Origin: Candidatus Methanoperedens sp. | GTDB lineage: Archaea > Halobacteriota > Methanosarcinia > Methanosarcinales > Methanoperedenaceae | Assembly (NCBI GenBank): GCA_030650845.1 | Contig: JAUSDC010000187.1 | Coordinates: 1-52,381, forward strand | DNA: 52,381 nucleotides | Direction: 5' to 3' | Shown here: positions 14,033-39,845 of the stretch, piece after piece | Layout of the letters: each line of letters opens with the position of its first letter | Position numbering within the stretch: position 1 is the stretch's first letter | Translations under genes and position numbers: made by a program | The notes under the pieces: generated by a model | Seen by the model: the letters and a program-made list of their open reading frames with translations, nothing else | Databases searched by the model: none | What the model was told of the DNA's origin: nothing

Positions 14033-14059
14033 ATATATACAAATTTGTTTTTATGGAAT

Positions 14060-15193: not shown

Positions 15194-15204
15194 TTTTTCT
15201 GCTC

Positions 15205-16425
15205 CTAATAAATATTATAAGTAACCATAACTGCAAAAATCACAGCAATTAAAATTATCACCAGGCTCGTCGCGAACAGTTTCCATTCTCTGTTCATATA
15301 AGCATGTGCTCCCCAAGGTACGAAAACAGCAAGACTTGATCCAATCATAATCTTATAAATTGAGGGAATAGCTGCCAATTTTTCTTCTCCAATTATGAAA
15401 TGCCATGCACCCATAGAGTAGTAAAATACAAATATAATCTCCACAACTCCCAGAGCAGCCTGCATTGATACTCCCCTGCTCTGGATCGCTATAGAACTCA
15501 TGCCCCTTAGCAAATCAAGCCCTGTATGGACGCTGCTTATTGTAGATTGACAGTAGTTCAGGTCGTATTTTATCTGGTTGAGTGATCTTTCAAATCTTTT
15601 TATTTGAAAGTTATAAACCTGGTCGTTCTCCCTCCGTAGAATCTCTAATCTATCCTTATAATTATCAATGTTAATCTGGAGCGTATTTTGGAGCTTATTA
15701 ACCAGTGATACCTTTTCTACAAAGCTAATGTATTTTTGAGTCACTTCGCTCAATGTTTCCTTCTGCTTTCGGGCATCCTTATTCCTAAGAGTATCGAGTA
15801 AAGTTACCAATTCTTCGTCAAGTTTCTTTGCGCCCCCCAGCAGTTCCTCCTGAACTTTTTCATATTCTCTTATCTCGGTGCTTGCCTTATGAAAATGCGA
15901 CTCGATTTTCACGAGTCCATAATTCATTGCGAAGAGAAAATTCTTCCTTGTTATATCCTCTAAATTCCTGGGTGTTTGCAGAATATACGCAATCTCTCTT
16001 TCCTTCATTGGTCGTGCAGCCTGCCATAAGTTCCCGAACTTGGTTATAGTTGGGGGAACTGTCCCATCTTTTTCAACTTCCAGACCATCAACCAGCCCCC
16101 AGTGCACAATGCTTGACCCCAGAAAATTGTATACATCGACAGAAATTTCTAAATCTTGAATTATCTGATATAAAGACTTTTGCTGATCAAGCCATCTCTG
16201 CGAAGAGAATTCTCCATCTTCTCTTATATAGAACCTCAATACAATGGTATCATAATAGGTTAACCATTCCAGTTGATATCCATTACCATTAAAGACCTTG
16301 TGGTCTGCTGTATCCTCTATTAAAGCTAATTTACTTTTCAGTCTATCTGGCGGCGCCTTATTGGTATTATCATGTTTAAAAAAATAAAGGGCAATTAGCG
16401 AGGGATTAGTAATTATTTCTTTCAT
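15205..16425 (-). CDS. Coiled-coil protein with C-terminal membrane helices
   Basis: The 406-residue protein has a beta-rich N-terminal part (about 1-140, e.g. YDTIVLRFYIREDGEF). A long coiled-coil-like region follows (about 160-300: EYEKVQEELLGGAKKLDEELVTLLDTLRNK through FERSLNQIKYDLNYC). Three or so hydrophobic helices follow at ~325-345, 350-375 and 385-405. The shape recalls CorA-type channels or sensors, but no GMN motif is present, so transport is not inferred. Its start overlaps the FHA gene stop by 4 bases (ATGA), which indicates coupling. It may anchor the FHA/Clp/kinase module to the membrane. The family is not recognised. Confidence 0.75.
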   Translation of the reverse strand: MKEIITNPSLIALYFFKHDNTNKAPPDRLKSKLALIEDTADHKVFNGNGYQLEWLTYYDTIVLRFYIREDGEFSSQRWLDQQKSLYQIIQDLEISVDVYNFLGSSIVHWGLVDGLEVEKDGTVPPTITKFGNLWQAARPMKEREIAYILQTPRNLEDITRKNFLFAMNYGLVKIESHFHKASTEIREYEKVQEELLGGAKKLDEELVTLLDTLRNKDARKQKETLSEVTQKYISFVEKVSLVNKLQNTLQINIDNYKDRLEILRRENDQVYNFQIKRFERSLNQIKYDLNYCQSTISSVHTGLDLLRGMSSIAIQSRGVSMQAALGVVEIIFVFYYSMGAWHFIIGEEKLAAIPSIYKIMIGSSLAVFVPWGAHAYMNREWKLFATSLVIILIAVIFAVMVTYNIY

Positions 16426-17069
16426 TTATGTTTCTTTAATCCCTCCTTAAAAAGAATCAACTCATTTCTAATGCTCTGTAGATCCTGATCATTTACTTCA
16501 GCGGGGCACATTCTAATGGGTTCTGGTGGTGGTGTTTCCAGTGCCTTACTGAGTTCATTTTTCATTTCATTAATAACTTTGAAAATTTCTTCAACTTCTG
16601 TAGTTTTTTCAACTTTTTGCAATTTCTTAATGAAATTATTGAACAGCTTTTCAAACTCTGCCTTCGAAAGTTTTTTGCCTGCCTCCTCAAATTGTCCTCG
16701 TATATCCTTAGCATCTTTTTGGAGCGTCTTAATATCATCTTTACATTCGAACTTCAGCCATACGGGTCCCAATTTTAAGATTGCACCAGAAAATACAATG
16801 GTGGGGCTTCGGGGGGGAATAAGCTTGGCGGCTTTATCCTCTATAATATAAGTCTTATTAGCACTCCCTTTTCCTTCTGGACCCACATCCTCTATAAAAT
16901 AGTTAACTTTTTCTTTTGTGATTCGTGCATGATGTCTGGAAACTTTATTATCAAAACGTAAGTATACATCGTCTTTTTCGTGTCTCCCCAGCACGATTGG
17001 AGTACTCTCGAACTCGAATACTTTTCCATCTTCTGCACCGCTCATTATGGTGATAAATATATAGCTCAA
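16422..17069 (-). CDS. FHA-domain protein
   Basis: The 215-residue protein has an N-terminal forkhead-associated domain (about 1-110). The key residues are present: LGRHEKDDVYL (GR at 28-29), VSRHHARI (S-R-H at 44-46, the phosphothreonine-binding core) and an ED-x-GP loop, where the usual N-G is less clear (GSANKTYI). The C-terminal half (about 115-215) is helical and charged. FHA domains bind phosphothreonine peptides, so the natural targets are the kinases in this cluster or their substrates. It overlaps both neighbours by 4 bases, so the Clp-FHA-membrane genes are tightly coupled. Confidence 0.88.
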   Translation of the reverse strand: MSYIFITIMSGAEDGKVFEFESTPIVLGRHEKDDVYLRFDNKVSRHHARITKEKVNYFIEDVGPEGKGSANKTYIIEDKAAKLIPPRSPTIVFSGAILKLGPVWLKFECKDDIKTLQKDAKDIRGQFEEAGKKLSKAEFEKLFNNFIKKLQKVEKTTEVEEIFKVINEMKNELSKALETPPPEPIRMCPAEVNDQDLQSIRNELILFKEGLKKHK

Positions 17070-19900: not shown

Positions 19901-19999
19901 GACCTCCAGGTAAGGCGGATGTTTCGATCCGAAGTAGAAAGATGCATGTTCTGCCAGGATAAAATCTGTTCTGCCTTCGGACTGATTTAAGTAGCATGA

Positions 20000-22009
20000 T
20001 CAAACAATCTCCTCAAGCTGGCGGATAGTTTCTTTAACGCCCTCGATATATACGGCATACTTGGGTGGTGCAAATTTGATAAAATTCTTATAAGATAACA
20101 GTGCTTCCTGATTCCTGCCAAGGTTAGACAGCACATTTCCTTTGTTAATCAAGGCCTCAGAATATCTTGGATTTATCTCAAGGGCTTTATCAAAGCATGC
20201 TACTGCATCCTCGTGTATGCCTAATATAACCAATGCAACCCCTTTGTTAGCCCATGCCTCATCATCTCTTGGATTAATCTCAAGGACTTTGTCGAAGCAT
20301 ATTACTGCTTCCTGATGCATACCCAGTTTTAGCAACGCATTTCCTTTGTTATACCAAGCCTTAACATGTCTAGGATTAATCTCAAGGGTTTTATCATAGC
20401 ACATAACTGCTTCCTGATGCATACCCAGATTACTCAGTTCATTTCCTTTGTTATACCAAGCCTTAACATGTCTAGGATTAATCTCAAGGGCTTTATCATA
20501 GCATGCTAATGCTTCCCGCTTACCCAGCGCATTTCCTTTGTTATACCAAGCTTCATCATCTCTAGGATTAATCTCAAGGGCTTTATCATAGCATGCTAAT
20601 GCTTCCTGATGCCTGCCTAGGTTTTGCAGCGCATTTCCTTTGCTATTCCAAGCCTCAGCATGTCTTGGATTAATATCAAGAGCTTTATCATAGCATGCTA
20701 ATGCTTCTTGATGCATACCCAGCTCATCCAGCGTATTTCCTTTGTTATTCCAAGCCCCAGCATATCTTGGATTAATCTCAAGAGCTTTATTATAGCATGC
20801 CAATGCTTCCTGATACTTGCCCAGATCATGCATCACATTTCCTTTGTTATACCAAGCCCCAGCATATCTTGGATTAATCTCAAGAGCTTTATTATAGCAT
20901 GCCAATGCTTCCTGATACTTGACCAAGTTTCGCAGTGCATTTCCTTTGTTATTCCAGGATTCAGCAAATCTTGGATTAATCTCAAGGGCTTTATCATGGC
21001 ATGTAAGCGCTTCCTGATACCTGCCCAGATTATCTAGTGCAATTCCTTTGTCATTTAGTTCCCATATTTCGATTTCTTCAGTTGGCTCTTCAATAATTCT
21101 TTCACCAGTTAAATCAAAATATATTTTTGAAAGTTTCACTTTTAGATCTCTGAAGTTCTGGTATCTCCTGCCCGGTTCTTTCTCCAAGCATTTTTGTATT
21201 ACAGCATTCAACTCCCGAGGAATATTCTGTTTAATAGACAATGGAGATTCTTTTAAATGCATCTCCTTCCATGGACTCTTCCTTGGGTAGGGATAACTGC
21301 CAGCAACCATCTGGTACAGAACTATCCCAAAAGCATAGATATCAGCCCTTGTATCGATTTCTTTGCCTGTGAACTGTTCAGGAGCCATATAAAGTAGTGT
21401 ACCAGCAGGACCACTCTGGATATAGCTTATATCATTTGGAACTTCTGTCATTTCTGGTGTTGTTTCTCTTGCCTTTGCCAGACCAAAATCTGTTATTTTT
21501 AAAGTTTTATCACTGGTAAGTAATATGTTACCCGGCTTAATATCTCTATGAATGAGCTGCATTTTTTCATATGCATATTCCATCCCATTGCAGAACTGGA
21601 CAGCGAAGTTCATGGCTAAAGGAAGATCTAACATTTTTGTATAAAGCCAGTCATCCAGATTACCACCAGCTATGTATTCCAGGAAAATATAAGGCTGATA
21701 TTCAATGTTTTCTACGTATATTGCTTTGACAATGTTCTTATGCTTATCAAGCTTTATCCAGGTGAGAGACTCCCGGGTAAAATCATCCCTTGCCTTCTGA
21801 CTGTGCAGAAACCTTGCCTGAAATGTTTTAATTGCAAGCGGCATTTTGTATTCATGGTCATAGCATATATACACAATCCCGAAACCGCCTCTCTTTATAT
21901 CGTGTATTTCATACCTGTTCTCAATTATATCCCCTATCTGCCATCGCTCCTGCTCGTCTGCTCCGGCGATATCCTCTTTTTTCCTCCTCAAATTGTCAAG
22001 CAGTCCCAT
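20000..22009 (-). CDS. Ser/Thr protein kinase with ten TPR repeats
   Basis: The start is chosen at the ATG at 22009, which has GGAGAG eight bases upstream; an in-frame ATG at 22051 lacks a ribosome site. The 669-residue protein has a canonical Hanks kinase: RGGFGIVY, AIKTF (K61), LIHRDIKPGNILL (HRD 154-156), ITDFGLAKA (174-176) and MAPEQFTGKEIDTRADIYAFGI. Ten TPR units follow from ~325, almost identical to each other (N-K-G-N-A-L-x-N-L-G, EALACYDKALEINPR). The sixth unit lacks 4 residues (NALGKREALACY). It is the first gene of the minus-strand block and is likely to be the main kinase. A TATA-like box lies at 22052-22062. Confidence 0.9.
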   Translation of the reverse strand: MGLLDNLRRKKEDIAGADEQERWQIGDIIENRYEIHDIKRGGFGIVYICYDHEYKMPLAIKTFQARFLHSQKARDDFTRESLTWIKLDKHKNIVKAIYVENIEYQPYIFLEYIAGGNLDDWLYTKMLDLPLAMNFAVQFCNGMEYAYEKMQLIHRDIKPGNILLTSDKTLKITDFGLAKARETTPEMTEVPNDISYIQSGPAGTLLYMAPEQFTGKEIDTRADIYAFGIVLYQMVAGSYPYPRKSPWKEMHLKESPLSIKQNIPRELNAVIQKCLEKEPGRRYQNFRDLKVKLSKIYFDLTGERIIEEPTEEIEIWELNDKGIALDNLGRYQEALTCHDKALEINPRFAESWNNKGNALRNLVKYQEALACYNKALEINPRYAGAWYNKGNVMHDLGKYQEALACYNKALEINPRYAGAWNNKGNTLDELGMHQEALACYDKALDINPRHAEAWNSKGNALQNLGRHQEALACYDKALEINPRDDEAWYNKGNALGKREALACYDKALEINPRHVKAWYNKGNELSNLGMHQEAVMCYDKTLEINPRHVKAWYNKGNALLKLGMHQEAVICFDKVLEINPRDDEAWANKGVALVILGIHEDAVACFDKALEINPRYSEALINKGNVLSNLGRNQEALLSYKNFIKFAPPKYAVYIEGVKETIRQLEEIV
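20120..21060 (-). repeat. ~102-bp coding tandem repeats (TPR array)
   Basis: Nine to ten units of 102 bp encode the 34-residue TPRs of the first kinase. Adjacent units are nearly identical over long stretches, with GGATTAATCTCAAGGGCTTT recurring on the plus strand. One unit is short by 12 bp. Such identity at DNA level suggests recent duplication or gene conversion. Confidence 0.8.
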
Positions 22010-22051
22010 TGCTATCTCTCCTATACATATGCATGAGAAATATCCATTCAA

Positions 22052-25663: not shown

Positions 25664-25713
25664 TAGTTGAAATACTGAGATGATTAAGTACCAATACCAA
25701 AGTTGTGATAAAA

Positions 25714-28700
25714 ATGGACAATGAAGATGAACTATTCAAGGAGGGGGAATTCAGCCAAAAATTAGGACCAAACATTATTGAACAATTTGTTAAATCTCAT
25801 GATTTAATTGGTATGATTGCCGAGCTAATTCAAAATGATTTTGATGCAAAAAGTAGAATAACCAAGATTCATTTTCAAAAAGATAGACTTATTATCACAG
25901 GTTATGGAATGAAAATTGATAAAAAGGGATGGGAGCGTTTATCTTATTGGTTAGGTGTAGGACAGGAATCTGAGAAAAAGGGAGATATTGGTAGGAAAAA
26001 CTTCGGGTTAAGATCATTATTTCTGATAAGCAATACAATTATAATATCATCAGGGGGATATAAAACAGCCTTGGATATTGAAAGAGGAGCAAGAAGAGAA
26101 AAAATTAAAGTAACTGCAATTTATCAAGAAGATTCTTCATTTAAATTAGAAGCAGAATATAGAACTGAATCATTAGGAAAACTTTCTGTTTTTACAAAAG
26201 AGCGAGAAAAGGAATTATTTGCTTCACTTGAAAAATACCTTCCTTCTTTTATCCAATTTCTTGTTTGTTCAAAAAAACAAAAATTATGCGCACTCAAAGG
26301 CGGACAAATATTACTTAAACCTTATGAGATTGAAATCTTTTCAGATCGTCTAGACAAATCTATAACAGGCCACGTTAAAATGTGGGAAGACAAGTATGTT
26401 CGAGAGTTATTGAATCGAACAATAGATTATAAAGTAATCGAAGATGATAAAACCAAATCAGACGAAAGTAGAATCACGGAAATTTTACTTCCAATTAAGC
26501 ATTTTAGCAATATGTCCCTGAGCGAAATTCCAGATTATTATTTATCTAAAGACAAAAAAAATGTAATTACTGGCATTTCATTTGCTGTAGATACAAAAGG
26601 CAAGAACCCATTAGTTACGCATGGAGGATTATTTTATCCAATCGGGATGAAAGAGCAATACACAGGGCTGAGTTTTTCAATAAATGCTCCATTCTTATTG
26701 GATATGGATAGAGACCGCATAGTACATAATGATGACTGGAATGAATATCTATTGACTCAAACAGGCAAAGAATTGGGGAATATATTTTCGACTAAAATTC
26801 TTCCGAAATATGGTGCTAACGCTTATTTATTGTTTGTTTCAAATAACATAGATAATGCTTACTTAAAGTTCTATGAAAATGCTTTAAAATCAGTGAAAGA
26901 GTATGTAATTAATGATCTCTACGATCCCAAGAAAAATTTAGAGAAAAGACAGTTTTGTGGATTAAATGAACAAGGGGAACTAAAAGCATACCTACCCTCA
27001 AAGTTATTGAATGGTAAAATTACTCCTCTTCTTGATTTATATCCAATAACGGTTTCTCTTACGGGGAAAGAACGAGCATTATCCCACCAGTTAGCCAAAT
27101 CTTTAATGAAGTTTGATGAGAATACTATTCAAAATTTCTTAGGCAATTTTAAAATTAAAACATTTACGATACACAATATTTGTGAGTTGCTTGTCAATGA
27201 TGGAAAAACAAAGCATACCTTCAGTAAAGATGGTGGATGGCATTATCCCAGTAAAGAATCGTTTGAAAAATATTTTTCAAATATTGATTACATTGAACTT
27301 CATCTTGATACACTCCACAAGTACTGGGATTTATTAACCAAAGAAGAAATAGGAGCAATTAAAGAATCGGATTGGTTACAAGATGCCAACAGCGACCCCC
27401 AATGTTTTGAATATCTTACCCTTTGGGAGGGGGATATTAAAGATTTCATTTGGCCTGTAAAAGATTCAATAATTCATCCTAAATTAGCTAAACATCCCAT
27501 ATTTCAAAGAAGAATGTTTAAACTTCCAACCTTTAATATAATAGAAAAAATCAAGGAAAAAGCAGAGGGATGGAAGGAATTAGATGATAATGAAAGAGAT
27601 GTCATTTTCAAATTCATAGTGAAAAACTGGAGATATATTCTAGGTGAAAAACACAGAAAGAATCAAGGATTGACCAAGGAGTTGAAAAAACTAAGAGAAC
27701 TCGTTTCAGAATATACTGTTTTGAAAGATTCGGGAGGAGAATGGGTAAAAATCCATGATTTAAGAGTAATTGATGAAAAGCTAAAATTAATTTTCGGATC
27801 ATCTATGCACTATCCTCATCCGGACATACCCAAACGGCTTTTATCGGTACTTAAAGCACCAACAAAATTGAAACTACCTGAAGATATAATAAAAAGATGT
27901 GACACACTTAAATCAGCAACAAAAGAAGAGATATTTTCTTTTGAGGACTATCTTTCAAGGAGAGGATTCAAAGAAGAAGTAAAAAAAGAAATATATGAAC
28001 ATCTATGGTCTGTTAGTAGACTTGGAGAAAAAGAACAGATTATTAAAACATCTGATGCATACATCCCATCAGGAAGATTAGAGAGACTACTTGGAACGAC
28101 CGTATTTCCTTATTTGGTTATTAGAAATGATCATATTAAAGAGTTCTTTCAACGCATCGAAGTTAGAGAAAATCCCACTTTTGAGGATATGGTTGAGTAT
28201 CTGAATTACTTGAAGAATAATAGAGGATATTTGAAAGATAGGAAATTGTTCTATATAGAACTGGCTAAATCAGCAGAGCGTGATAGTCTAAAAAAAGAGG
28301 ACATTTCCACTCATCCTATTATTCTCATTGGCCAGGAATTATTCCCACCGGAAAAAGTGATAATTACTAGAATTTTATATAAATATTTTAAGAAAGGGCT
28401 ACGCTACTGGCCCGAAAGCAACATAGATCCTATTCTTCGAGATAGTTTAAAGAAGCTAGGCTGTAAAGAAAAGGTTGTTAAAGAGCATTTAATAGATTAT
28501 TTGAAATGGATCGCCGAAGAGTATAAAATAAATAAACAAATTGGTTTGGAAGAAAAAGAGGGAATCCATAGGGCTTATTCCGAGTTAAAAAGTTACCCAT
28601 CTGATGAAATATCGAATGAAGCAAAAATATTTTTATCTAGATCAAATAAATTATTTTCGAAGAACGACATTGATAATGAAATTTTATGTTTTGATGATAT

Positions 28701-29958
28701 GTCTGAATTAGCAGAGAAATTAATCGAACAAAATAAAAACATAGAGTTTGCTGATTATGGTGAGGGAAGGCAATTCATTGATAGTAGTGGGATTAAAACC
28801 ATATCTTCTTTAATTGAAAATGTTGAAGTTAAATTGGGGAAGAGAGTAAAGCAAGACCGGGAGTTGACCAAAAAAATTGCATCTCAATATATAAAAAATG
28901 CTCTTATCTCTGCAAATATACAGGAATTCAAAGGAATAATGAATCAAGATATTATTAAGGATTTGAAGAAAGTGGAAGTATACGAAGAGATCTCAAAGGT
29001 TTATACTGTCAAATCCAATGAGATGGAGATGTCTGATAAGATCGGTATAAAATGGGACAGTGAAGCGAATTGCTTTGTCTTATGCATAGTCGATGATGAA
29101 ATAGACAATTTATCTATAGCTAAGGAATTTTCTTCCTTCCTAATCAAAAAACCCTATGAAAGATATAGGGCAATAGATTTCCTTATTATTCTCTTGTCAT
29201 ATGAGAACGAGCAACAAATCCAAGATTATCTAAAGTTCAAGAACATAGATTATGTGAATTATTTCAAGCCTAGTATCGAGGAATATCAAGATACAGAAGA
29301 AGAGCCTTTTGAAGAGGAGATAAAAGAGATAGAGGGCGTTGAGGATGATAAAGAAGAGGATGGATATGAGAATATAGAAGGAGAGGAAAAAACGCCAAGA
29401 GAGCTGAGAAAGGGAGGGCAAAGACAAAGGAAGGTGCCAACAGATGATATTGGGGAGAAAATCGAGGATGAGATTGATGATTTAGACGAGGAGGAGGAAA
29501 CCATAGAAGAATTAAAAAGAAAAAGAGGCACGACTAAAGGGGAGTATGTCCCCACTTCCATAAAGAAAAGGCCCGAAAGTGTAATCCATCTCCAGATACA
29601 GATCAAAAGGAAATATGACAAATGCCAGATATGTGGTTTGCCTGTTTTTGAAGGAATAGACCAGTCTAAAGTATATGGTCATTTACGAGGGCATCATTTA
29701 ATACCATGGCAAGAAAAGGAAACTGTTTTTAATGGCCTATTATGTTTGTGTCAACCTCATCATCACATGATTCATCACGCAAGAGAAGTTATATTTAAAA
29801 TCCGTAAAGGTAATAAAACAATCGAGGTATTTGTAAATGGAAAAAATTTGGGGGCCATACAAATATTGCCTGGACACGATATTTTAAAATATTTTCTCGA
29901 AGGCTCAGAACAAATTATGCAATTCTCAGAAAATGTAAAAATCGAAATATTAGAATGA
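25714..29958 (+). CDS. Giant GHKL ATPase-HNH nuclease protein
   Basis: The 1414-residue protein starts at the ATG at 25714 (a GTG at 25705 is in frame). The N-terminus is a Bergerat/GHKL ATPase: AELIQNDFDAKSR (E40, N44, D48 counted from the GTG) and GDIGRKNFGLRSLF (93-106). The motif that should read D-x-G-x-G is IITGYGM (63-69), so the adenine-contacting Asp is missing. A long middle (about 200-1190) is unrecognised, and an acidic, low-complexity linker follows (about 1190-1300). The C-terminus is an HNH nuclease with C1307-x2-C1310, HH at 1330-1331, N1343, C1347 and HH at 1353-1354. ATPase-HNH giants of this kind resemble sacsin/MORC-like conflict proteins. It probably cuts nucleic acid in response to invasion; the exact system is not recognised. 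Confidence 0.8.
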   Translation: MDNEDELFKEGEFSQKLGPNIIEQFVKSHDLIGMIAELIQNDFDAKSRITKIHFQKDRLIITGYGMKIDKKGWERLSYWLGVGQESEKKGDIGRKNFGLRSLFLISNTIIISSGGYKTALDIERGARREKIKVTAIYQEDSSFKLEAEYRTESLGKLSVFTKEREKELFASLEKYLPSFIQFLVCSKKQKLCALKGGQILLKPYEIEIFSDRLDKSITGHVKMWEDKYVRELLNRTIDYKVIEDDKTKSDESRITEILLPIKHFSNMSLSEIPDYYLSKDKKNVITGISFAVDTKGKNPLVTHGGLFYPIGMKEQYTGLSFSINAPFLLDMDRDRIVHNDDWNEYLLTQTGKELGNIFSTKILPKYGANAYLLFVSNNIDNAYLKFYENALKSVKEYVINDLYDPKKNLEKRQFCGLNEQGELKAYLPSKLLNGKITPLLDLYPITVSLTGKERALSHQLAKSLMKFDENTIQNFLGNFKIKTFTIHNICELLVNDGKTKHTFSKDGGWHYPSKESFEKYFSNIDYIELHLDTLHKYWDLLTKEEIGAIKESDWLQDANSDPQCFEYLTLWEGDIKDFIWPVKDSIIHPKLAKHPIFQRRMFKLPTFNIIEKIKEKAEGWKELDDNERDVIFKFIVKNWRYILGEKHRKNQGLTKELKKLRELVSEYTVLKDSGGEWVKIHDLRVIDEKLKLIFGSSMHYPHPDIPKRLLSVLKAPTKLKLPEDIIKRCDTLKSATKEEIFSFEDYLSRRGFKEEVKKEIYEHLWSVSRLGEKEQIIKTSDAYIPSGRLERLLGTTVFPYLVIRNDHIKEFFQRIEVRENPTFEDMVEYLNYLKNNRGYLKDRKLFYIELAKSAERDSLKKEDISTHPIILIGQELFPPEKVIITRILYKYFKKGLRYWPESNIDPILRDSLKKLGCKEKVVKEHLIDYLKWIAEEYKINKQIGLEEKEGIHRAYSELKSYPSDEISNEAKIFLSRSNKLFSKNDIDNEILCFDDMSELAEKLIEQNKNIEFADYGEGRQFIDSSGIKTISSLIENVEVKLGKRVKQDRELTKKIASQYIKNALISANIQEFKGIMNQDIIKDLKKVEVYEEISKVYTVKSNEMEMSDKIGIKWDSEANCFVLCIVDDEIDNLSIAKEFSSFLIKKPYERYRAIDFLIILLSYENEQQIQDYLKFKNIDYVNYFKPSIEEYQDTEEEPFEEEIKEIEGVEDDKEEDGYENIEGEEKTPRELRKGGQRQRKVPTDDIGEKIEDEIDDLDEEEETIEELKRKRGTTKGEYVPTSIKKRPESVIHLQIQIKRKYDKCQICGLPVFEGIDQSKVYGHLRGHHLIPWQEKETVFNGLLCLCQPHHHMIHHAREVIFKIRKGNKTIEVFVNGKNLGAIQILPGHDILKYFLEGSEQIMQFSENVKIEILE

Positions 29959-32318: not shown

Positions 32319-32550
32319 TTATTTCCTGCGATTGTTGAATCTGGTTTCCCATGTCCTCAAAATTCAAACGCGGGGCACACCAACCGCAGCAGAGCTGTGG
32401 AGTATAGCGATTAAGAGCTAAAGAAGTTGATGAGCATAAAAGCTGGTGATGACGGGGTTCGCATGCCAAGTGACCGGCGCGCTGTAACAGCCATTGTAAC
32501 ACCCAAACTCAGGATTTTTTATATAGGATGATGCCCAATTGATACTTGCA

Positions 32551-32712
32551 ATGAGATATACAAGAGAAGAAATTCAGGATATCGCCGATGAATCAGGTCA
32601 GCCCGTAGTAGTTGTTAAAAAAGAAGAGGGACTGACGCCCAAGCAAAAGAAAATCCTGGAAGAAACGAAGCGCAGGCATGATAAGGCTTTCAGAAGATTG
32701 GCCCAAATGTAG
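32551..32712 (+). CDS. Small basic protein, possible antitoxin or Doc partner
   Basis: This 53-codon frame begins MRYTREEIQDIADESGQPVV, continues VVVKKEEGLTPKQKKILEET, and ends in a basic helix KRRHDKAFRRLAQM. The composition (acidic helix, short strand, basic helix) looks like a folded small protein. It ends inside the 3' end of the Doc gene on the other strand, overlapping it by 23 bases. Phd-type antitoxins normally precede doc on the same strand, so this convergent order would be unusual; its partnership with Doc is inference from position only. Confidence 0.5.
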   Translation: MRYTREEIQDIADESGQPVVVVKKEEGLTPKQKKILEETKRRHDKAFRRLAQM

Positions 32713-33058
32713 TTTCTCTGATCCATTTTTCTATTGTTTTGACAGTGCATTTATATTCAGCAATTTTCTGCATCAAATTAACGATTTCGTTCTCTCCCGC
32801 GTCCAAATAGTATCCAGCTTCTCCAAGCACGTTTTCCGCCGCTGCAAATGCAGTCCTCTTGTTTCCATCGAAAAAAGGATGTTGTGCAGCTATAGTATGC
32901 AAGATTAAGGCTGCCTGCCCAAACAAATCTTTTTCACGGTTCGCCTTATAAACCAGTAATTCGAGCGTGCCCTGGGTTAATAAACCACCGGTTCCACCGT
33001 ATTCTTGTATGATGTCGTCATGGATTCCGATTATTCGCTTGACTGTTAATTCAGCCAT
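32690..33058 (-). CDS. doc: Doc-type Fic-family toxin
   Basis: The 122-residue protein contains the Fic/Doc active-site motif HPFFDGNKRTAF (about 60-71), matching H-x-F-x-D/E-G-N-K/R-R. It also has the Doc-type N-terminal segment IIGIHDDIIQEYGGTGGLL and a C-terminal helix. Doc of phage P1 phosphorylates EF-Tu, while other Fic proteins AMPylate targets. The size and the K in GNKR fit the Doc branch. No Phd-like antitoxin gene is clear directly upstream; only a short open stretch (RRVGYCNILSLEDLTEPEK) is seen on the minus strand near 33080-33190. The catalytic motif is complete, so the toxin may still be active. Confidence 0.82.
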   Translation of the reverse strand: MAELTVKRIIGIHDDIIQEYGGTGGLLTQGTLELLVYKANREKDLFGQAALILHTIAAQHPFFDGNKRTAFAAAENVLGEAGYYLDAGENEIVNLMQKIAEYKCTVKTIEKWIRETTFGPIF

Positions 33059-33975: not shown

Positions 33976-34021
33976 TAGTAGGACGCTGCCTCTATATTAG
34001 ATTTTTTAAAAAAATATAGGA

Positions 34022-34136
34022 TCTATGGTATCTATGGTATCTATTGTATATATGGTATCTATTGTATCTATTGTATCTATGGTATCTATGGGTTTTAAAA
34101 AATATGGGATATATGGTATCTATGGTAAGTATGGTT
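34022..34136. repeat. Array of 9-bp repeats (TCTATGGTA type)
   Basis: Eight contiguous 9-bp units (34022-34093; consensus TCTATGGTA with TCTATTGTA and TATATGGTA variants) are followed by three more at 34110-34136. On the minus strand the unit reads TACCATAGA, related to the 9-bp units before the promoters at 35530 and 36421. The array lies just beyond the 3' end of the small-gene operon. Confidence 0.8.
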
Positions 34137-34176
34137 TTTATAGATAAGAAAGAATAACCCCACACCTGACTTGACC

Positions 34177-34383
34177 CTATCTGCCGGTTTTCTTCCAGAC
34201 TGCGCTAAGAACCGGGGTATCTCCCTTGACCGACTGGTAAAGGGTGAGCAGGAACTTTAAGAACTGATCCTGATCAAGGTTGCTCTCCCCGATCCGTCCA
34301 GCCTCCTGTGCCTTCATCTCGTTTAAAAGCGCAAGGGTGGGCTTTTTTACCTGAATTGTGGTATATCCTTCTGGTCTGCCCAT
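34177..34383 (-). CDS. Ribbon-helix-helix-like small protein (copy 1)
   Basis: The start is the ATG at 34383, one base after the stop of the preceding gene (TAAcATG). The 68-residue protein has a strand YTTIQVKKP, a helix TLALLNEMKAQEAG and a second helix LDQDQFLKFLLTLYQSVKG. This beta-alpha-alpha order fits ribbon-helix-helix DNA binders. It is clearly paralogous to 35956-36165 (same K-K-P-T-x-A-L-L-N, GES-N, F-L-L-T-L-Y-Q, VWKK). It may be the repressor that binds the 9-bp repeats. It is the last gene of the six-gene operon. Confidence 0.65.
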   Translation of the reverse strand: MGRPEGYTTIQVKKPTLALLNEMKAQEAGRIGESNLDQDQFLKFLLTLYQSVKGDTPVLSAVWKKTGR

Positions 34384-34384
34384 G

Positions 34385-34600
34385 TTATAACCCCAGCCTG
34401 TGCTTCTCCTCGATCCTGAACCTGAGCGTATCCCTTCTGACCTGCCCGCTAACCTCGTCATTAAGAGCGAACCTGCCCTCAAAGGTCTGCCATATCTGCC
34501 GTGCCTTCAAGTAATGCCTGATGGCTCCGGGAAGGTTTACAGGGGGGGTTTGGGGAGCCTGAGGGGAAAATGGGGGATATGAAGATTGTATCACTAACAT
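34385..34600 (-). CDS. Small protein, first of the duplicated pair (copy 1)
   Basis: The ATG at 34600 overlaps the stop of the upstream gene (TAATG). The 71 residues begin with a Pro-rich stretch (SSYPPFSPQAPQTPPVNLP). A conserved block follows, GAIRHYLKARQIWQTFEGRF and ALNDEVSGQVRRDTLRF, shared almost unchanged with the gene at 36167-36352. The helical, basic C-terminal half could bind DNA, but the family is not recognised. It always precedes the RHH-like gene by one base, so the two probably work together. Confidence 0.6.
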   Translation of the reverse strand: MLVIQSSYPPFSPQAPQTPPVNLPGAIRHYLKARQIWQTFEGRFALNDEVSGQVRRDTLRFRIEEKHRLGL

Positions 34601-34797
34601 TACAATCCCTTCCCGTTGCACTCTGTGCCCCTTAAACATGCGGGTAACTCTTTATATCCTGTGGTGATCCATATGCTATCATCGGGTACTGATTTGGCGC
34701 CGTATTCCTCGCTGTCCTTAAAGAAATGCACCTCAAGTGCGCTTGTATTCCCTGCGTAGCTGTCAAGTCTCACGGGGAGTATTACTTTATTGCTCAT
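34600..34797 (-). CDS. Small hypothetical protein of the element operon
   Basis: The 65-residue protein starts MSNKVILPVRLDSYAGNTSA and continues with LEVHFFKDSEEYGAKSVPDD and SIWITTGYKELP. It looks beta-rich. Its stop overlaps the next start, so it is translationally coupled. No known family. Confidence 0.55.
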   Translation of the reverse strand: MSNKVILPVRLDSYAGNTSALEVHFFKDSEEYGAKSVPDDSIWITTGYKELPACLRGTECNGKGL

Positions 34798-34837
34798 ATT
34801 TTTTCATTCCTCATGTTGTTTGTTTTTCTTGGGTTCC

Positions 34838-35125
34838 TCACGGTAGTTTATCTCCTCTGGATCGGTAAGGTGATGCAGGCTGCAATTGAGTTGTTTTATT
34901 GCGCTCTTCCGGCTTTCCATGAAGGTAAGTATCCCTATCGCCTTTAACATGGGACTGCCAGTTTATGCTCTGGAAAGACCACTTACCGCTATAGATGTCA
35001 AACCTCAGGTCTGAAACTTCTACCTCTATAGCTCCTGCTAACTCCTCAAGCACCTGCAGCTTGGTTTTTTCCGGCGTCCCGTCATTGAAAATCAGGCTGC
35101 CGACTACAAGGGATTCCCCGCTCAT
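34838..35125 (-). CDS. Small hypothetical protein of the element operon
   Basis: The 95-residue protein has LVVGSLIFNDGTPEKTKLQV, a helix LEELAGAIEVEVSDLRF, then IYSGKWSFQSINWQSHVKGD; the last ~25 residues are polar and probably disordered. The ATG overlaps the stop of the 42-residue gene upstream as ATGA. No known family is recognised. Confidence 0.55.
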   Translation of the reverse strand: MSGESLVVGSLIFNDGTPEKTKLQVLEELAGAIEVEVSDLRFDIYSGKWSFQSINWQSHVKGDRDTYLHGKPEERNKTTQLQPASPYRSRGDKLP

Positions 35126-35250
35126 TTCGATCCCCCCATGAATACTTCTACTGCCTTTTTTGCGTCCAGTATGTGCTGCCCGTGTATTTCATGAACCTGC
35201 AAGCTCTCCAGATGTTCCTTAACTGTTTTTTCGTCATTTTTATATTGCAT
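35122..35250 (-). CDS. 42-residue protein of the element operon
   Basis: MQYKNDEKTVKEHLESLQVH continues with EIHGQHILDAKKAVEVFMGG and SK, giving two amphipathic helices. It begins 12 bp after the previous gene and ends in an ATGA overlap with the next, so the spacing supports a real gene despite its size. Confidence 0.55.
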   Translation of the reverse strand: MQYKNDEKTVKEHLESLQVHEIHGQHILDAKKAVEVFMGGSK

Positions 35251-35262
35251 AATCAAGCCTCC

Positions 35263-35466
35263 TCACATTCCGTATTCGTATTCGACAAGGCAAGCAACTT
35301 CATCCCCTTCAATGGATTTCACGGTTACATCATCGATGATAAAAATCCCGTTCTCGCTGTCCATCTTGCCCGCCAGTCCTTTCTTTCCCAGAGCCTCCTT
35401 GAGTGCTTCCATCAGGCTCTTCCCTTTTGTCAGGGTGATAGTTGTGTTATCGAACTGTGTTCCCAT
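35263..35466 (-). CDS. First gene of the element operon, small hypothetical protein
   Basis: The 67-residue protein has FDNTTITLTKGKSLMEALKE followed by ALGKKGLAGKMDSENGIFII and VTVKSIEGDEVACLVEYEYG, a beta-alpha-beta-beta pattern. GAAGGT lies five bases before the ATG. It is the first gene after the promoter with three 9-bp repeats, so it should be the most strongly expressed of the set. No known family. Confidence 0.6.
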   Translation of the reverse strand: MGTQFDNTTITLTKGKSLMEALKEALGKKGLAGKMDSENGIFIIDDVTVKSIEGDEVACLVEYEYGM

Positions 35467-35486
35467 GTTTTACCTTCGACTATGTA

Positions 35487-35500
35487 AGGGCGATAGCCCT
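35487..35500 (-). promoter_or_regulatory. Leader hairpin in the element operon mRNA
   Basis: AGGGC-GATA-GCCCT, read on the plus strand, lies between the TATA box and the first start codon. The same hairpin is at 36376-36389 before the duplicated pair. It would be near the 5' end of both transcripts. Confidence 0.4.
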
Positions 35501-35520
35501 AAGGTCTTATTAGGCTCTCA

Positions 35521-35556
35521 TGATATATATACCCATAGTTACCATAGTACCCATAC
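35521..35556 (-). promoter_or_regulatory. Promoter with three 9-bp repeats upstream of TATA
   Basis: On the minus strand GTATATATATCA (35521-35532) is the TATA box. Immediately upstream on that strand are three 9-bp units (plus strand: TACCCATAG, TTACCATAG, TACCCATAC; 35530-35556). The same layout is at 36411-36447. Confidence 0.65.
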
Positions 35557-35867
35557 AGGATTTTAAGCTATTTTTAGCCGTTTATCCTGCGATCCCCGTT
35601 AACGTTCATTTTTTGATTTGTTTTTCGGCAGAGCGTAACGATTCCAGATAAAAAACCTGAAATGAATTACCGGTTTCAGGTGCATCCTGGATAAACCCGA
35701 TTTTTGGGTTTTTTTCATAAAACAGAAACCAGAGAAGACCAGGACAGCCAGAGATCAAGAAGATCAGAAAATGGGTGGCCTCTCAAATTATATCCCCGTC
35801 CTCCTTCAGATGGAGCATCCCTGGCATCAAACCTTGTTTTAGTGGATGTGCCTTTCGAATAAATATT

Positions 35868-35894
35868 ATGGATAATATGGATAATATGGATATG
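35868..35894. repeat. Three 9-bp repeats, ATGGATAAT type
   Basis: ATGGATAAT, ATGGATAAT and ATGGATATG in tandem; the reverse complement (ATTATCCAT) matches the TATCCAT core of the promoter repeats at 36421-36447. They lie in the ~490-bp gap between the first operon and the 3' end of the duplicated pair. Confidence 0.6.
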
Positions 35895-35955
35895 TGTAAA
35901 GCTGGTGAGTTACGAAAAGAAAAAAATCCTCTCCCCGGTTTTGCGCTTAACCTTG

Positions 35956-36165
35956 TTACTCCTTCTTACCCATTTTCTTCCATACTGAACTGAGCACAAG
36001 GGTATCGCCTTTAACAGCCTGGTAAAGCGTGAGCAGGAATCTTAAAAACTCATCCTGCTCTATGTTGCTTTCTCCTAAGCGTCCAGCCTCCTCAGCCCTC
36101 GTCTGGTTGAGGAGAGCCATAGTGGGTTTTTTGACATTTAAGGAAGTATAGCCTGGCGTGACCAT
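35956..36165 (-). CDS. Ribbon-helix-helix-like small protein (copy 2)
   Basis: The 69-residue paralogue of 34177-34383 has YTSLNVKKPTMALLNQTRAE, EAGRLGESNIEQDEFLRFLL and TLYQAVKGDTLVL. The ATG at 36165 is one base after the stop of the preceding gene, exactly as in copy 1. It probably binds DNA and may repress the shared promoter type. The sequence differences look like normal drift with a preserved frame, so both copies seem maintained. Confidence 0.65.
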   Translation of the reverse strand: MVTPGYTSLNVKKPTMALLNQTRAEEAGRLGESNIEQDEFLRFLLTLYQAVKGDTLVLSSVWKKMGKKE

Positions 36166-36166
36166 G

Positions 36167-36352
36167 TTATAATCCCACCCTGAACCTTTCCTCTATCCCG
36201 AACCTCACCGTATCCTTTCTTACCTGCCTGCTAACCTCGTCATTAAGGGCGAACCTGCCCTTAAAGGTCTGCCAGATCTGCCGTGCCTTCAAGTAATGCC
36301 TGATGGCTCCTGGAAGGTTTACAGGGAGTTTTTGGGGAGCCTTATATGCCAT
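36167..36352 (-). CDS. Small protein, first of the duplicated pair (copy 2)
   Basis: The 61-residue paralogue of 34385-34600 shares NLPGAIRHYLKARQIWQTF, GRFALNDEVS and QVRKDTVRF, but has a shorter N-terminus (MAYKAPQKLPV). Preservation of the core at both protein and DNA level shows a recent segment duplication. The leader before it is also a copy of the first operon's leader. Confidence 0.6.
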   Translation of the reverse strand: MAYKAPQKLPVNLPGAIRHYLKARQIWQTFKGRFALNDEVSRQVRKDTVRFGIEERFRVGL

Positions 36353-36375
36353 TTTCTTTGACCTCCGATTATGTA

Positions 36376-36389
36376 AGGGCGATAGCCCT
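36376..36389 (-). promoter_or_regulatory. Leader hairpin before the duplicated pair
   Basis: Same AGGGC-GATA-GCCCT hairpin as at 35487-35500, in a duplicated leader. Confidence 0.4.
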
Positions 36390-36410
36390 AAGGTCTTATT
36401 AAGCTCTCAT

Positions 36411-36447
36411 GGTATATATATATCCATGTTATCCATGTTATCCATAC
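36411..36447 (-). promoter_or_regulatory. Promoter of the duplicated pair with three 9-bp repeats
   Basis: TATA-rich sequence at 36411-36422 is followed, upstream on the minus strand, by TATCCATGT, TATCCATGT and TATCCATAC in tandem (36421-36447). Confidence 0.65.
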
Positions 36448-36751
36448 TGGATTTTAAGCTAGTTTAAGTCGTTTATTCTGCGATCCCCGTTATCATTGAA
36501 TTTATACCATGTTTTACAGCGTGGAGTAATGAATCCAGATGAAAAACCTGAAATGTATCACCGGTTTTAGATGCGTCCAGGATAAGCCTGATTTTTACAT
36601 TTCGACAAAGATGGTATTAGAAAACAAATTGGATAAGGATATACATATCCAAGTTTATTTTTTTATACCTTTACTGTTATCCCCGCACACCGCTTTTTTA
36701 TCATCCAAAAAGCTTCCACGTCTGTTTTTTTAACTGTTTCGCCAAAATGTA

Positions 36752-36918
36752 TCCAGCTTTATCTTTAACATATCCAGGTTTAACGCTAAACCGCTCCAGC
36801 TTTACTTTTAACATATCCAGGTATGAAAGCCAATCAAAGCAAACCTCTCCAGCTTTATCTTTAACATATCCAGGTTTAACGCTAAACCGCTCCAGCTTTA
36901 CTTTTAACATATCCATGT
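36752..36918. repeat. Four 28-bp iterons, candidate replication origin
   Basis: Copies of a 28-bp unit beginning TCCAGCTTTA and ending AACATATCCAGGT start at 36752, 36795, 36848 and 36891. They form two 71-bp composite repeats 96 bp apart with nearly complete identity. Single related ATATCCAAGT elements lie at ~36647 and ~37210. An AT-rich stretch follows. The 71-residue minus-strand frame across the repeats is judged to be a by-product. Confidence 0.75.
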
Positions 36919-37559
36919 TTTGGGGCGCAAAGGGCCGGGACAGGCGCAGGAAGCACTATGATCAATCCCAAAAGCACTCCAGAACGAGAACAGTATTAAC
37001 ATATTTTGTAAAAAATATTTGATTTTTACGCATGTATAAGCGTAACTTAACATTTTTAAAATGAGGTTTAGACTGTTTTTTTCGCTATGCACCGAACAGT
37101 ATTAAAAACATTCCACACTCAAAAAACGCTGTTAGTAACCCTTTTAAAAATAATTTACACTTAACTTTAGACAGTAAAAAACACAAAGCGCAGGATTTTT
37201 ATAATAAAACATATCCAAGTATGACTTCCCCCTTATATTTTTACAGAACCGCTCCGCCTCGGTTCTTTAACTTGAACTGTGTAAAACCTGGATACCCTAT
37301 CTTATATAAATCCGTTGTATATCGGTTTTCACTTTGTAAACAAAACAACCTTTCACGCTTGCTGGTTTTGTTCCCTGCATTGTGATTTTTTAAGACTTGT
37401 TCAGGTATGTTGTATTCTCTTCATATCTTTGCCTTTTTACTATTTAGTCTTTTTCTTATTAGGTTTTGTCAAGTCTTCGGTGGCTGGGCATACCTGTCAA
37501 AAATCGGTTGCTGCCTGATATTCTTTGTATGAATAGTTTCTGTGTATAAAGTTGACTTT
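36919..37559. other. AT-rich region without genes beside the iterons
   Basis: No convincing gene is present. It is rich in A/T runs, with CGAACAGTATTAA and GAACAGTATTAAC repeated (about 36977-36990 and 37086-37100) and one more ATATCCAAGT element near 37210. It could be the unwinding element or a control region of a plasmid-like origin. Confidence 0.4.
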
Positions 37560-38048
37560 CTATTTTGGATAAAATTTCTTTCTTATCTTTCTTGATTCTT
37601 CGTTGTAATCGTTAGTAATGTTCAAAATTAATAGTGGGGTTTTTAATTTTTTACAAATATCTCTGATGTTTGATATGTCATATGAAGAATCGCTATAATC
37701 TTTTTCGATTACTGCAACTTTCACATGGAAACTTTGACTCCTCGCATTTTGTATGTACTTGTCAAGACTGTATTTTTCCCACGTATTCAGTTCAAAAGGA
37801 CAAATTAGTATTTTGTACTTGTTTCTATTAACATCAAACCGTTTTTCTAAAGAATCTGGGAATTTATTTGGGGGATTTTCGTTACCACCAAGTTCCGTTA
37901 TAGCCGAAAGAACCACAAACGCCATTAGAGGCTTTTTGTTAAGACTCCTCACCGTCCACAATCCATTTCTGCTACATCCAGTCAAGCTTTTAATTGTGGA
38001 TGTTTTGCCACTACGCCTGTCTCCAACAATAAAAATGCAAGTTTTCAT
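37560..38048 (-). CDS. P-loop NTPase, small
   Basis: The 162-residue protein begins MKTCIFIVGDRRSGKTSTIK, a clear Walker A (GDRRSGKTS, residues 9-17). Other strand-like segments are YKILICPFELN (~78-88), HVKVAVIEKDY (~107-117) and TPLLILNIT (~136-144), giving a small Ras-like or KAP-like P-loop fold; no G-protein NKxD motif is visible. A TATA box (TTATATAC, plus-strand 38076-38083 region) about 25 bases upstream suggests a leaderless mRNA. The frame is open upstream into a transposase remnant, probably by chance. Role in the element unknown. Confidence 0.65.
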   Translation of the reverse strand: MKTCIFIVGDRRSGKTSTIKSLTGCSRNGLWTVRSLNKKPLMAFVVLSAITELGGNENPPNKFPDSLEKRFDVNRNKYKILICPFELNTWEKYSLDKYIQNARSQSFHVKVAVIEKDYSDSSYDISNIRDICKKLKTPLLILNITNDYNEESRKIRKKFYPK

Positions 38049-38201: not shown

Positions 38202-38349
38202 TTAAAAATAAATAATGAGTTTTACTGAACATTAAACATCCATCGCAGGAATATATATTTTATGATTATTTGGAGAATTGCATCCTCTGATAATCGCTGC
38301 GGGTTCAGGCTTATTTTTACTGATCCCCCCTCTCGGTGATTGACCATTC

Positions 38350-38440
38350 TAGTTGCAGTAAAATGAATATACTGTAACTTAGTTGCAGTGTTTTAAATTT
38401 ACTGAAACTAAGTTTCAGTAAACTGGATTTATTGAAACTT
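38350..38440 (+). promoter_or_regulatory. Phased operator array (19-bp palindromes every 30 bp)
   Basis: ACTGTAACTTAGTTGCAGT (38371-38389) and ACTGAAACTAAGTTTCAGT (38401-38419) are palindromes centred at 38380 and 38410. Half-sites AGTTGCAGT (38351-38359) and ATTGAAACT (38431-38439) fall where further palindromes centred at 38350 and 38440 would be. The last touches the TATA box, so a repressor bound here would block transcription of 38480-38689. Confidence 0.7.
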
Positions 38441-38449
38441 ATAATATAA
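38440..38449 (+). promoter_or_regulatory. TATA box of the small gene at 38480
   Basis: TATAATATAA lies 30-40 bases before the ATG at 38480, directly after the operator array. The transcript would have a very short leader. Confidence 0.55.
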
Positions 38450-38479: not shown

Positions 38480-38689
38480 ATGGCAAAAATAACACAACCG
38501 GACTTTCCTACTATTTTCGTGGAGTATGCCAGGGAAAAGCTGAAAACGGACAGGGATCTGGTTGAATATCTGGCGCAGTTCGGGCCGCCTTTCCTGAAGA
38601 GCGGGCCGCAGATGGTCCTTATGGCTGCGGGGGAAAAACTGCAAGAACCACACTATGCAAAAACTATTTTACCGCCACTGGTTTTGTGA
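38480..38689 (+). CDS. Small hypothetical protein beside the integrase
   Basis: The ATG at 38480 is preferred over the one at 38468 because of the promoter spacing. The 69 residues read MAKITQPDFPTIFVEYAREK, then LKTDRDLVEYLAQFGPPFLK and a helix MVLMAAGEKLQE. It is mostly helical and not a recognised family. Its last 26 bases overlap the 3' end of the convergent integrase gene. The strong operator array before it suggests tight control, as expected for a switch or excision-related gene, but this is inference. Confidence 0.55.
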   Translation: MAKITQPDFPTIFVEYAREKLKTDRDLVEYLAQFGPPFLKSGPQMVLMAAGEKLQEPHYAKTILPPLVL

Positions 38690-39845
38690 TGTTCTTTAGC
38701 ATCTCCACCAGCCTGGGTTCTCTCTGAATAAGATCCATTAATTCAAGTGCCATTCCTGATTCTCCTTTGTCGATCTTCATTGCAGTTTCCATGTCTAAAG
38801 CCATACCGCAGCGATAGCAGAAGCGCGCGGTTGAGGGGTTATTCTCCCTGCAGCGCGGGCATGGTATAGGTTTGAGAATATCGCTTTCTTTATTCTTTTC
38901 TTCTTTTGTGATTATTCCTTCGGCTTCCAGTTGCACCCTGTCCACGTCAGCCCCAGACCTGTGTATATATACAGATGCCATTTTACTATCTGCGGTCCAG
39001 CCAGCAAACACCTTCAAATCAGCTTCCTTGAAAAAACCTGCAACTTCGGTCAGCCGGGTATGCCTGAGCAGATGCGGGTGTATATTCTTTTTTATATCTG
39101 TTTTTTTGGCGATCGAAATAATCAAGCTGTACGCCCTGGATACTGAAAGTGCGGCATTCAGTGAATCATGGGTTATCCATAGCGGCTCAGTATCACCCTT
39201 ACTGGGGCGGTTATTGATGTAAACTAACAGATCCGGGACGCACCGTATCAGCCGCACCCTGCGCATTCCGGTTTTCCCGTTGAGGATAATAACCGCCCCG
39301 AACTGGTCAAATATCAGGTCTTTCAGCATCACGGGAATTGTTATATTCCCTTTCTTTTTCTCATGGACTACCATCTCCTCAACACGGGCTGCACTCTCGT
39401 ATAGAACAGATACAAACGCCCGATCCCTGGGATTATCCCCCGCATCTATCAGGGCTTTGACCTCGGCAGCCGTGAGAATATCGTCAGGCAGCATCCTTTT
39501 TTTATGATTTGAGATTTTAATCCACCGAACCATGTCCGGGTACGTATCGCTCCTGTAAAGCCATTTGAAGAATTTCTTGATGTAGATCTTGTACTGGTCA
39601 AGAGTGCAGGTCTCAACATCAAGGCTGTAAAGGAACTCCTCAATGTCTTCGCGATCCATCTTATCAAACGGTTTCCTGACAGCCAGGGCAAGCGGCACGA
39701 TCTTGAATAGCTGCCCTGCCCTTGTGGACGGGACGATGTTCTCGTTCTTTTCGCATTCCCTGTCCCACCGCTCCAGGACTTTCCTGTGTTCCGGGAGTAG
39801 CTCGGGCATGTTTAGCCGCTTTCGGATCTGGTTTTCTCTATCCAT
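38664..39845 (-). CDS. Tyrosine recombinase (phage/plasmid-type integrase) with C-terminal zinc ribbon
   Basis: The 393-residue protein has a SAM-like N-terminal DNA-binding domain (about 15-105) and a catalytic domain. Catalytic residues are R154 (ESAARVEEM), K191 (LNGKTGMRR), H258-x-x-R261 (HPHLLRHTRL), W283 in place of the second His (FAGWTADS) and Tyr293 (VYIHRS). A zinc ribbon C329PRC332...C343YRC346 follows, a feature of archaeal phage-type integrases. All core residues are present, so the enzyme may be active. Its 5' end faces the truncated aminotransferase 82 bp away, so this end is probably the attachment junction. GAGG lies six bases before the ATG. Confidence 0.92.
   Translation of the reverse strand: MDRENQIRKRLNMPELLPEHRKVLERWDRECEKNENIVPSTRAGQLFKIVPLALAVRKPFDKMDREDIEEFLYSLDVETCTLDQYKIYIKKFFKWLYRSDTYPDMVRWIKISNHKKRMLPDDILTAAEVKALIDAGDNPRDRAFVSVLYESAARVEEMVVHEKKKGNITIPVMLKDLIFDQFGAVIILNGKTGMRRVRLIRCVPDLLVYINNRPSKGDTEPLWITHDSLNAALSVSRAYSLIISIAKKTDIKKNIHPHLLRHTRLTEVAGFFKEADLKVFAGWTADSKMASVYIHRSGADVDRVQLEAEGIITKEEKNKESDILKPIPCPRCRENNPSTARFCYRCGMALDMETAMKIDKGESGMALELMDLIQREPRLVEMLKNITKPVAVK

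Follow-up and report, generated by a model that had tools for sequence, protein, structure and literature searches.

Two duplicated operons for ribbon-helix-helix-like proteins with separate 9-bp site codes in a putative integrated element of Candidatus Methanoperedens

Introduction

In archaea, the nearest precedent for a ribbon-helix-helix (RHH) protein that binds operators of tandem repeats at the transcription factor B recognition element (BRE) and the TATA box is F55 of SSV1, a viral RHH repressor whose targets are tandem ATAGATAG repeats at early promoters and at the promoter of its own gene (PMC5569661). In the plasmid pSM19035, the repeat arrays bound by omega at promoters also function as centromeres, for which ParA is required as well as no fewer than four contiguous repeats (PMC9499535), and PrpA of the plasmid pMBL6842 is an RHH antitoxin that binds its own promoter and the plasmid iterons (PMC7848731). 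Here, we describe a 52,381-bp contig of Candidatus Methanoperedens sp. (JAUSDC010000187.1; hereafter, the window) in which arrays of a 9-bp unit stand at the promoters and behind the ends of two duplicated minus-strand operons encoding the small RHH-like proteins RHH69 and RHH68, within what is most likely a plasmid- or virus-like integrated element.

The locus resembles F55 in having a small archaeal regulator, here putatively of the RHH type, and short tandem repeats at promoters that include the regulator's own. However, the F55 units ATAGATAG come in pairs, whereas the arrays here consist of 3 to 12 units of 9 bp, and the single regulator there contrasts with two paralogues with separate codes here. 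Moreover, no iteron block has been described for F55. The resemblance to PrpA would lie in an RHH-type protein that is active at iterons as well as at its own promoter, but the ParE toxin partner and the RepB initiator that accompany PrpA are not recognizable here. By analogy, the present case may work most like F55 plus PrpA, its distinctive features being the separate codes of the two operons and a concerted motif switch in a related element.

Results

Each operon carries its own site code

A lag-9 scan across the window (27-bp frames with at least 16 of 18 matches at lag 9) returned only three loci, 34015-34092, 35862-35894, and 36419-36448, compared with a mean of 0.02 loci in shuffled sequences, and all three fall within one 2.4-kb stretch. 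Together with Tandem Repeats Finder, the scan recovered the four arrays at the places given by an initial annotation of this DNA; the degenerate array at the promoter of operon 1 scores under the 16/18 threshold. The terminal array of operon 1 has eight 9-bp units (34021-34093), an 11-bp A+T spacer, and then three to four more, 11 to 12 units altogether, and that of operon 2 has 3.3 units. Promoter array 2 is TATCCATGT repeated three times and abutting TATATATATA, and promoter array 1 is composed of three degenerate minus-strand units, TATGGG-TACTATGGT-AACTATGGG, abutting TATATATAT. The arrays adjoin positions 35521 and 36411, as annotated initially, but both positions proved to be TATA boxes, with the arrays directly upstream on the minus strand. 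Tandem repeats are thus found at the TATA box of each regulator's own operon.

The gene order on the minus strand is array, TATA box, leader with a short hairpin, ORF61 (ORF, open reading frame), RHH69, and inverted array in operon 2, and array, TATA box, the same leader, ORF67, ORF95, ORF65, an ORF61 paralogue, RHH68, and a long inverted array in operon 1. The RHH-like genes therefore do lie behind these two promoters, although as the last genes of the operons, not the first. About 230 bp of regulatory DNA is duplicated between the operons with 79-92% identity, and the ORF61 and RHH genes are likewise duplicates. Between the RHH68 and RHH69 genes, third positions differ in 35 of 67 cases and first and second positions in 20 of 134, indicating that the protein is under purifying selection. 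The ORF61 copies (36167-36352 and 34388-34570) differ at 11/61 third and 16/122 first and second positions, that is, without clear protein-level constraint between them. This scarcity of third-position changes beside strongly changed RHH neighbors suggests a younger exchange or gene conversion, or a constraint at the DNA level.

In each operon, both arrays have one code and exclude the other: TATGGTA at the promoter and terminal arrays of operon 1, and ATGGATA at those of operon 2. In both cases, the terminal array has the orientation opposite to that of the promoter array. The pair pattern ATGGATANNATGGATA occurs four times (0.08 expected), always inside the operon-2 arrays, and TATGGTANCTATGGTA, allowing up to two mismatches, occurs 13 times (0.09 expected), always inside the operon-1 arrays. 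When the duplicated promoters were compared, the array was identical at 18 of 26 positions and the immediate flanks at 83 of 90 (Fisher P = 0.005), so the array has diverged more than its surroundings.

The sites form a network whose motif is switched in a relative

The TATCCA core of operon 2 is present in 17 copies within the 4.0 kb from 33990 to 38000, where 2.6 are expected, a number reached in none of 1,000 shuffles. An iteron-like block on the integrase side has eight sites with this core or the variant CTCCA, spaced by 21, 22, 21, 32, 21, 22, and 21 bp. These distances equal two or three helical turns, as in the helical phasing of iteron origins, and no initiator gene was recognized at 33-40 kb.

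When 186 genomes of the order were searched and GTDB was scanned, a sole relative was found, namely, G008:C259 (JAHIFK010000017), from a euryarchaeal metagenome-assembled genome. It has an integrase with 54% identity, an RHH-like protein with 31% identity, and a homologous noncoding block; the integrase and the RHH-like protein are the only proteins found in both elements. In its block, the spacing is identical and the sites correspond one to one, but the cores have changed together to the TGTTCA type. TGTTCA is present there in 13 copies (1.5 expected) and TATCCA in none, and each motif is at chance level or absent in the other element. The noncoding conservation extends beside the iterons (36921-37085), for which we failed to find any comparable match in the 186 genomes outside this relative. 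For the expectation that related elements with the genes also have the arrays, the relative gave a mixed outcome: tandem 9-bp arrays are absent from it, but the homologous site network is present with its motif changed.

An alignment of the three proteins showed differing residues in the predicted strand, S-N-K in RHH69, T-Q-K in RHH68, and T-T-E in the relative, and these are expected to face the DNA if oriented as in known RHH proteins. The simplest reading of this pattern is that one DNA-binding protein per element has changed its specificity along with its sites.

The RHH-like proteins have a plausible strand-helix-helix fold

The description of the proteins as RHH-like is plausible from a strand-helix-helix pattern and from the topology of the AlphaFold2 model of RHH69, which has helices at residues 13-30 and 37-50 and a third helix. 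However, confidence in the model is low (pLDDT 66), and profiles give no match. The strand motifs are S-L-N-V-K-K-P and T-I-Q-V-K-K-P, and an alternating polar/hydrophobic pattern is found N-terminally in all three proteins, where the AlphaFold2 monomer has merely an extended segment. Small divergent RHH proteins may escape detection by profiles. A MazEF-mt1 entry proposed as a structural match of RHH69 was too weak to be used (VIA-align Z of 2.8). The ORF61 model is a single long helix (pLDDT 65).

The operons lie in a putative integrated element

The integrase gene, a tyrosine recombinase gene with a zinc ribbon, is adjoined by an aminotransferase gene that is cut at codon YNQYSITWG and has a longer copy with 83% identity on contig C138. 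The start of its homology is the probable right border of the element. The missing N-terminal part was sought as a mark of the left border and was absent from the window. In the same genome, a sister element on contig C149 (L039 7549-12245) has a tRNA gene beside the 5′ side of its integrase, an MCM helicase, and an RHH-like gene preceded by an array of 12-bp direct repeats. A profile comparison with this RHH-like protein gave no match, and Pfam likewise did not recognize the latter. Because of the integrase at the junction and the sister element with its tRNA, integrase, and MCM genes, the locus is most likely a plasmid- or virus-like integrated element; the suggestion of an integrated replicon is supported by the adjacent integrase, the iteron-like block, and the sister elements. 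An IMG/VR scan with the 17-mer GGGACAGGCGCAGGAAG gave five coincidental matches, rejected as unrelated GC-rich or coding DNA, and a second pattern gave none. Neither the RHH nor the ORF61 protein was found on free plasmids, in phages, or on IMG/VR contigs, and the integrase search of IMG/VR likewise returned no match.

A solitary CRISPR repeat adjoins operon 2

A solitary repeat of the CRISPR (clustered regularly interspaced short palindromic repeats) type lies beside terminal array 2. In the true arrays of sister genomes, the repeat is ATTCGAGAGGCACATCCATTAAAACAAGGATTGAAAC or a close variant of it, and the solitary repeat matches these array repeats at about 32 to 33 of 37 positions. Its core is identical at 23 of 24 positions to the array repeats of genomes G004 and G008, and its last part is altered relative to array repeats; one copy is present here. 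The core has one further match in the genome, with three mismatches, on contig C149. Rfam scored the repeat as CRISPR-DR7 with 30 bits, under the gathering score of 37, and matches to SNORD59, MIR169_2, MIR408, and U6 were rejected as chance. Just 5′ of the integrase of a related element, L048 13909-13945 (+) matches CRISPR-DR7 with 40.3 bits, over the gathering score. In addition, three elements have TTGCATCCTCTG 3′ of their integrase, and this sequence adjoins CRISPR repeats on contig C145 (window, 38278-38289; L048, 15466-15477 and 17680-17691; L039, 9580-9591; L049, 1501-1512). At L048 17680, it stands within a fuller CRISPR-repeat-like sequence, with GTTTCAGCGCAAGTGCCTCTGAGAC next to it.

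Discussion

Very probably, the arrays are binding sites of the small regulator proteins of the element. From the observed arrays, duplication, code pairing, site network, and motif switch in the relative, we infer more specifically, with a probability of roughly 0.6, that they are operators of two small RHH-type proteins of an integrated plasmid- or virus-like element, with the fold, the binder, and repression as the inferred parts. Self-control, as proposed initially, is well supported by the anatomy, since both TATA boxes directly adjoin an array and the code differs between the paralogous operons; the binder would be the encoded protein. We propose that an ancestral regulator operon consisting of ORF61 and an RHH gene with their promoter, operator, and leader was duplicated, and that each copy gained its own code, ATGGATA for RHH69 and TATGGTA for RHH68, with sites at the promoter and, inverted, behind the operon. 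By binding to neighboring 9-bp units beside the TATA box, dimers would exclude the TATA-binding protein and transcription factor B and thereby limit their own operon. The RHH69-type code is also spread across the helically phased block beside the integrase, which resembles an iteron origin or centromere. Judging by the shared core, this code probably serves such an origin or centromere as well, where RHH69 probably also acts, e.g., in copy number control, origin silencing, or DNA bridging.

Several observations weigh against this reading. The pairing of codes is based on two paralogues and one relative, and three proteins in two elements are too few for proof of covariation. Sequence searches of Pfam, NCBIfam, PHROG, and the PDB gave no RHH match, and the RHH69 model had no significant match in the PDB or by Foldseek. 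No TGTTCA occurs within approximately 750 bp upstream of the RHH gene of the relative, so conservation of autoregulation is without support there. Part of the sites in the iteron block of the window come from a 96-bp internal duplication and are thus not all independent. The iteron binder could also be the integrase or an unseen protein.

Among the alternatives, the sites might serve mainly replication or partition: the RHH-like proteins would be centromere binders of the ParB or ParR kind, as with omega of pSM19035, the iteron block would be an origin or centromere, and the arrays would be additional centromere sites. We regard this as unlikely, even though the helically phased conserved sites adjoin an A+T-rich block, the contiguous eight-unit array at 34021 resembles parS of pSM19035 (PMC9499535), and the MCM helicase of the sister element, whose integrase is related, implies replicons. 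In both cases, short repeats follow each other without gaps, in direct or inverted orientation, at promoters that include the protein's own, and the roles of omega as a repressor and centromere binder would be shared. However, omega has a ParA partner and 7 to 10 WATCACW units of 7 bp per site, whereas the period here is 9 bp and most arrays have three units. Four or more contiguous repeats are reached only by the eight units at 34021-34093, the other arrays having about three. No ParA- or ParM-type gene was found at 33-40 kb, where the sole ATPase is a 162-amino-acid (aa) P-loop protein without a ParA signature, and no initiator gene was found in the element. Because no ParA was found in that range and the promoter arrays are short, the omega-type partition suggested in the initial annotation is unsupported.

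The two operons could alternatively be copies of a type II toxin-antitoxin system, with ORF61 as the toxin and the RHH-like protein as the autoregulating antitoxin. Such two-gene units with a 1-bp gap have indeed been duplicated jointly, and RHH antitoxins autoregulate, one of them also binding iterons (PMC7848731). We nevertheless consider this improbable, given that ORF61 has no match to known toxin families, precedes the RHH gene, and lacks clear protein-level constraint between its copies. It is very unlikely that the iteron block consists of arm-type or excision sites bound by the integrase and that the promoter arrays belong to an independent, merely similar-looking regulator system. The block does adjoin the integrase gene and is conserved together with it, but the TATCCA core is common to the block and the operon-2 arrays, and approximately 3 kb separates the block from the 5′ border of the integrase, where the junction is. 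Least probable are neutral slippage products without a binder, which would account for the variable units and the internal duplication of the long array, but not for four arrays at promoters and operon ends with inverted symmetry and shared codes, nor for a concerted motif change at aligned positions in the relative. Tandem repeats of Borgs were rejected as a parallel, since these are perfect (PMC9879509) and the arrays here are degenerate and located at promoters.

If the arrays are operators with diverged codes, the locus would offer a natural experiment on how the specificity of a small DNA-binding protein changes together with its sites, of which there are a dozen or more: one element has two paralogues with separate codes, and the aligned sites of a relative have switched. 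In addition, it would be a small, testable regulatory module that has a solitary CRISPR repeat and possibly an origin, and it comes from uncultured archaea, in which such elements are poorly known.

The solitary repeat allows a further, doubtful extension. Stand-alone CRISPR repeats are known from archaeal viruses and plasmids (PMC6858448), and some solitary repeats are RNA anti-CRISPRs, at times beside anti-CRISPR genes (PMC10651486). The repeat described here is similarly a single host-type repeat in a mobile element, adjoining small-gene operons; however, RNA anti-CRISPRs are transcribed and inhibit CRISPR-Cas, as this repeat would also have to do, and its end is altered. It is possibly an RNA anti-CRISPR or a stand-alone repeat. 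Anti-defence genes of archaeal viruses are small and unannotated and have a near-identical regulatory sequence in common (PMC11065993), and both operons loosely resemble them in their small unannotated genes, near-identical promoters, and small DNA-binding proteins. Aca8 of these viruses is, however, a predicted winged helix-turn-helix protein acting among viral genes, whereas the proteins here are RHH-like and no known anti-defence gene was recognized. The operons might then constitute an anti-defence regulon of small early genes in an integrated archaeal plasmid or provirus, with an Aca-like RHH repressor encoded last in each operon, the solitary repeat as RNA anti-CRISPR, and the RHH69-type protein silencing the origin via the iterons. 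If true, a single evolving operator code would link the integrated state to replication and to anti-defence output, and the divergence of paralogues and elements would be accompanied by a concerted change of all sites.

Other features of the window

The coordinates of the features are collected in Table 1. We failed to find any relative of ORF67 in 33 genomes of the family.

Table 1. Features of the two operons and the surrounding element in the window
Feature	Coordinates	Strand	Remarks
Terminal array 1 (operon 1)	34021-34136	+	ATCTATGGT-type units; inverted relative to promoter array 1
RHH68, last gene of operon 1	34177-34383	-	68 aa; 70% identity to RHH69
ORF61 paralogue, operon 1	34385-34639	-	77% identity to ORF61 over 61 aa
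ORF65, operon 1	34600-34797	-	No family match
ORF95, operon 1	34838-35125	-	No family match
ORF67, first gene of operon 1	35263-35466	-	Acidic protein
Operon 1 regulatory region (distal region, array, TATA, leader)	35480-35705	-	Homologous to 36366-36596 of operon 2
Promoter array 1 (operon 1)	35530-35555	-	TATGGGTACTATGGTAACTATGGGTA; abuts TATATATAT
Solitary CRISPR repeat	35824-35860	-	ATTCGAAAGGCACATCCACTAAAACAAGGTTTGATGC; 2 bp from terminal array 2, on the operon-2 strand
Terminal array 2 (operon 2)	35863-35892	+	ATGGATAAT x3; inverted relative to promoter array 2
RHH69, last gene of operon 2	35956-36165	-	RHH-like, 69 aa; 1 bp after ORF61
ORF61, first gene of operon 2	36167-36352	-	61 aa, basic, isoelectric point 11; no family match
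TATA box, operon 2	36413-36420	-	TATATATATA; followed by 5′ untranslated region with hairpin
Promoter array 2 (operon 2)	36421-36446	-	Three ATGGATAAC units directly upstream of TATA box
Inverted TATCCA pair 1 (sites 36630/36646)	36630-36652		Aligns with inverted pair of the relative
Iteron-like block	36750-36920	+	Eight TATCCAGGT- or CTCCAGCT-type sites; noncoding, integrase side
Conserved noncoding block beside iterons	36921-37085		About 80% identity to G008:C259
Inverted TATCCA pair 2 (sites 37212/37289)	37212-37294		Counterpart in the relative
Tyrosine recombinase with C-terminal zinc ribbon (integrase)	38664-39845	-	5′ end towards element border
Aminotransferase without first ~53 residues	39928-40914	+	Homology starts abruptly at 39928

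The 5′ untranslated regions have an AGGGC-TATC-GCCCT hairpin (36373-36395 and 35480-35505, minus strand) that is nearly the same in both operons. In the predicted fold, ACCTT pairs with the ribosome-binding GGAGGT/GAAGGT, and the hairpin may possibly exert translational control. Three 30-bp tandem repeats of the TAGTTGCAGTAAAATGAATTTACTGAAACT type (38350-38441), just ahead of a small plus-strand ORF, are possibly another operator. Farther away, a Fic/Doc-type toxin gene with a small ORF adjoining on the opposite strand lies at 32539-33058. A 1,417-aa protein encoded at 25705-29958 is a candidate defence protein, as it weakly matches HATPase and HNH and is similar to TmtA in PADLOC. Kinase-TPR proteins and a ClpC-like ATPase are clustered at 9395-22051, the kinases having PD-T4-6- and mad6-like matches in PADLOC.

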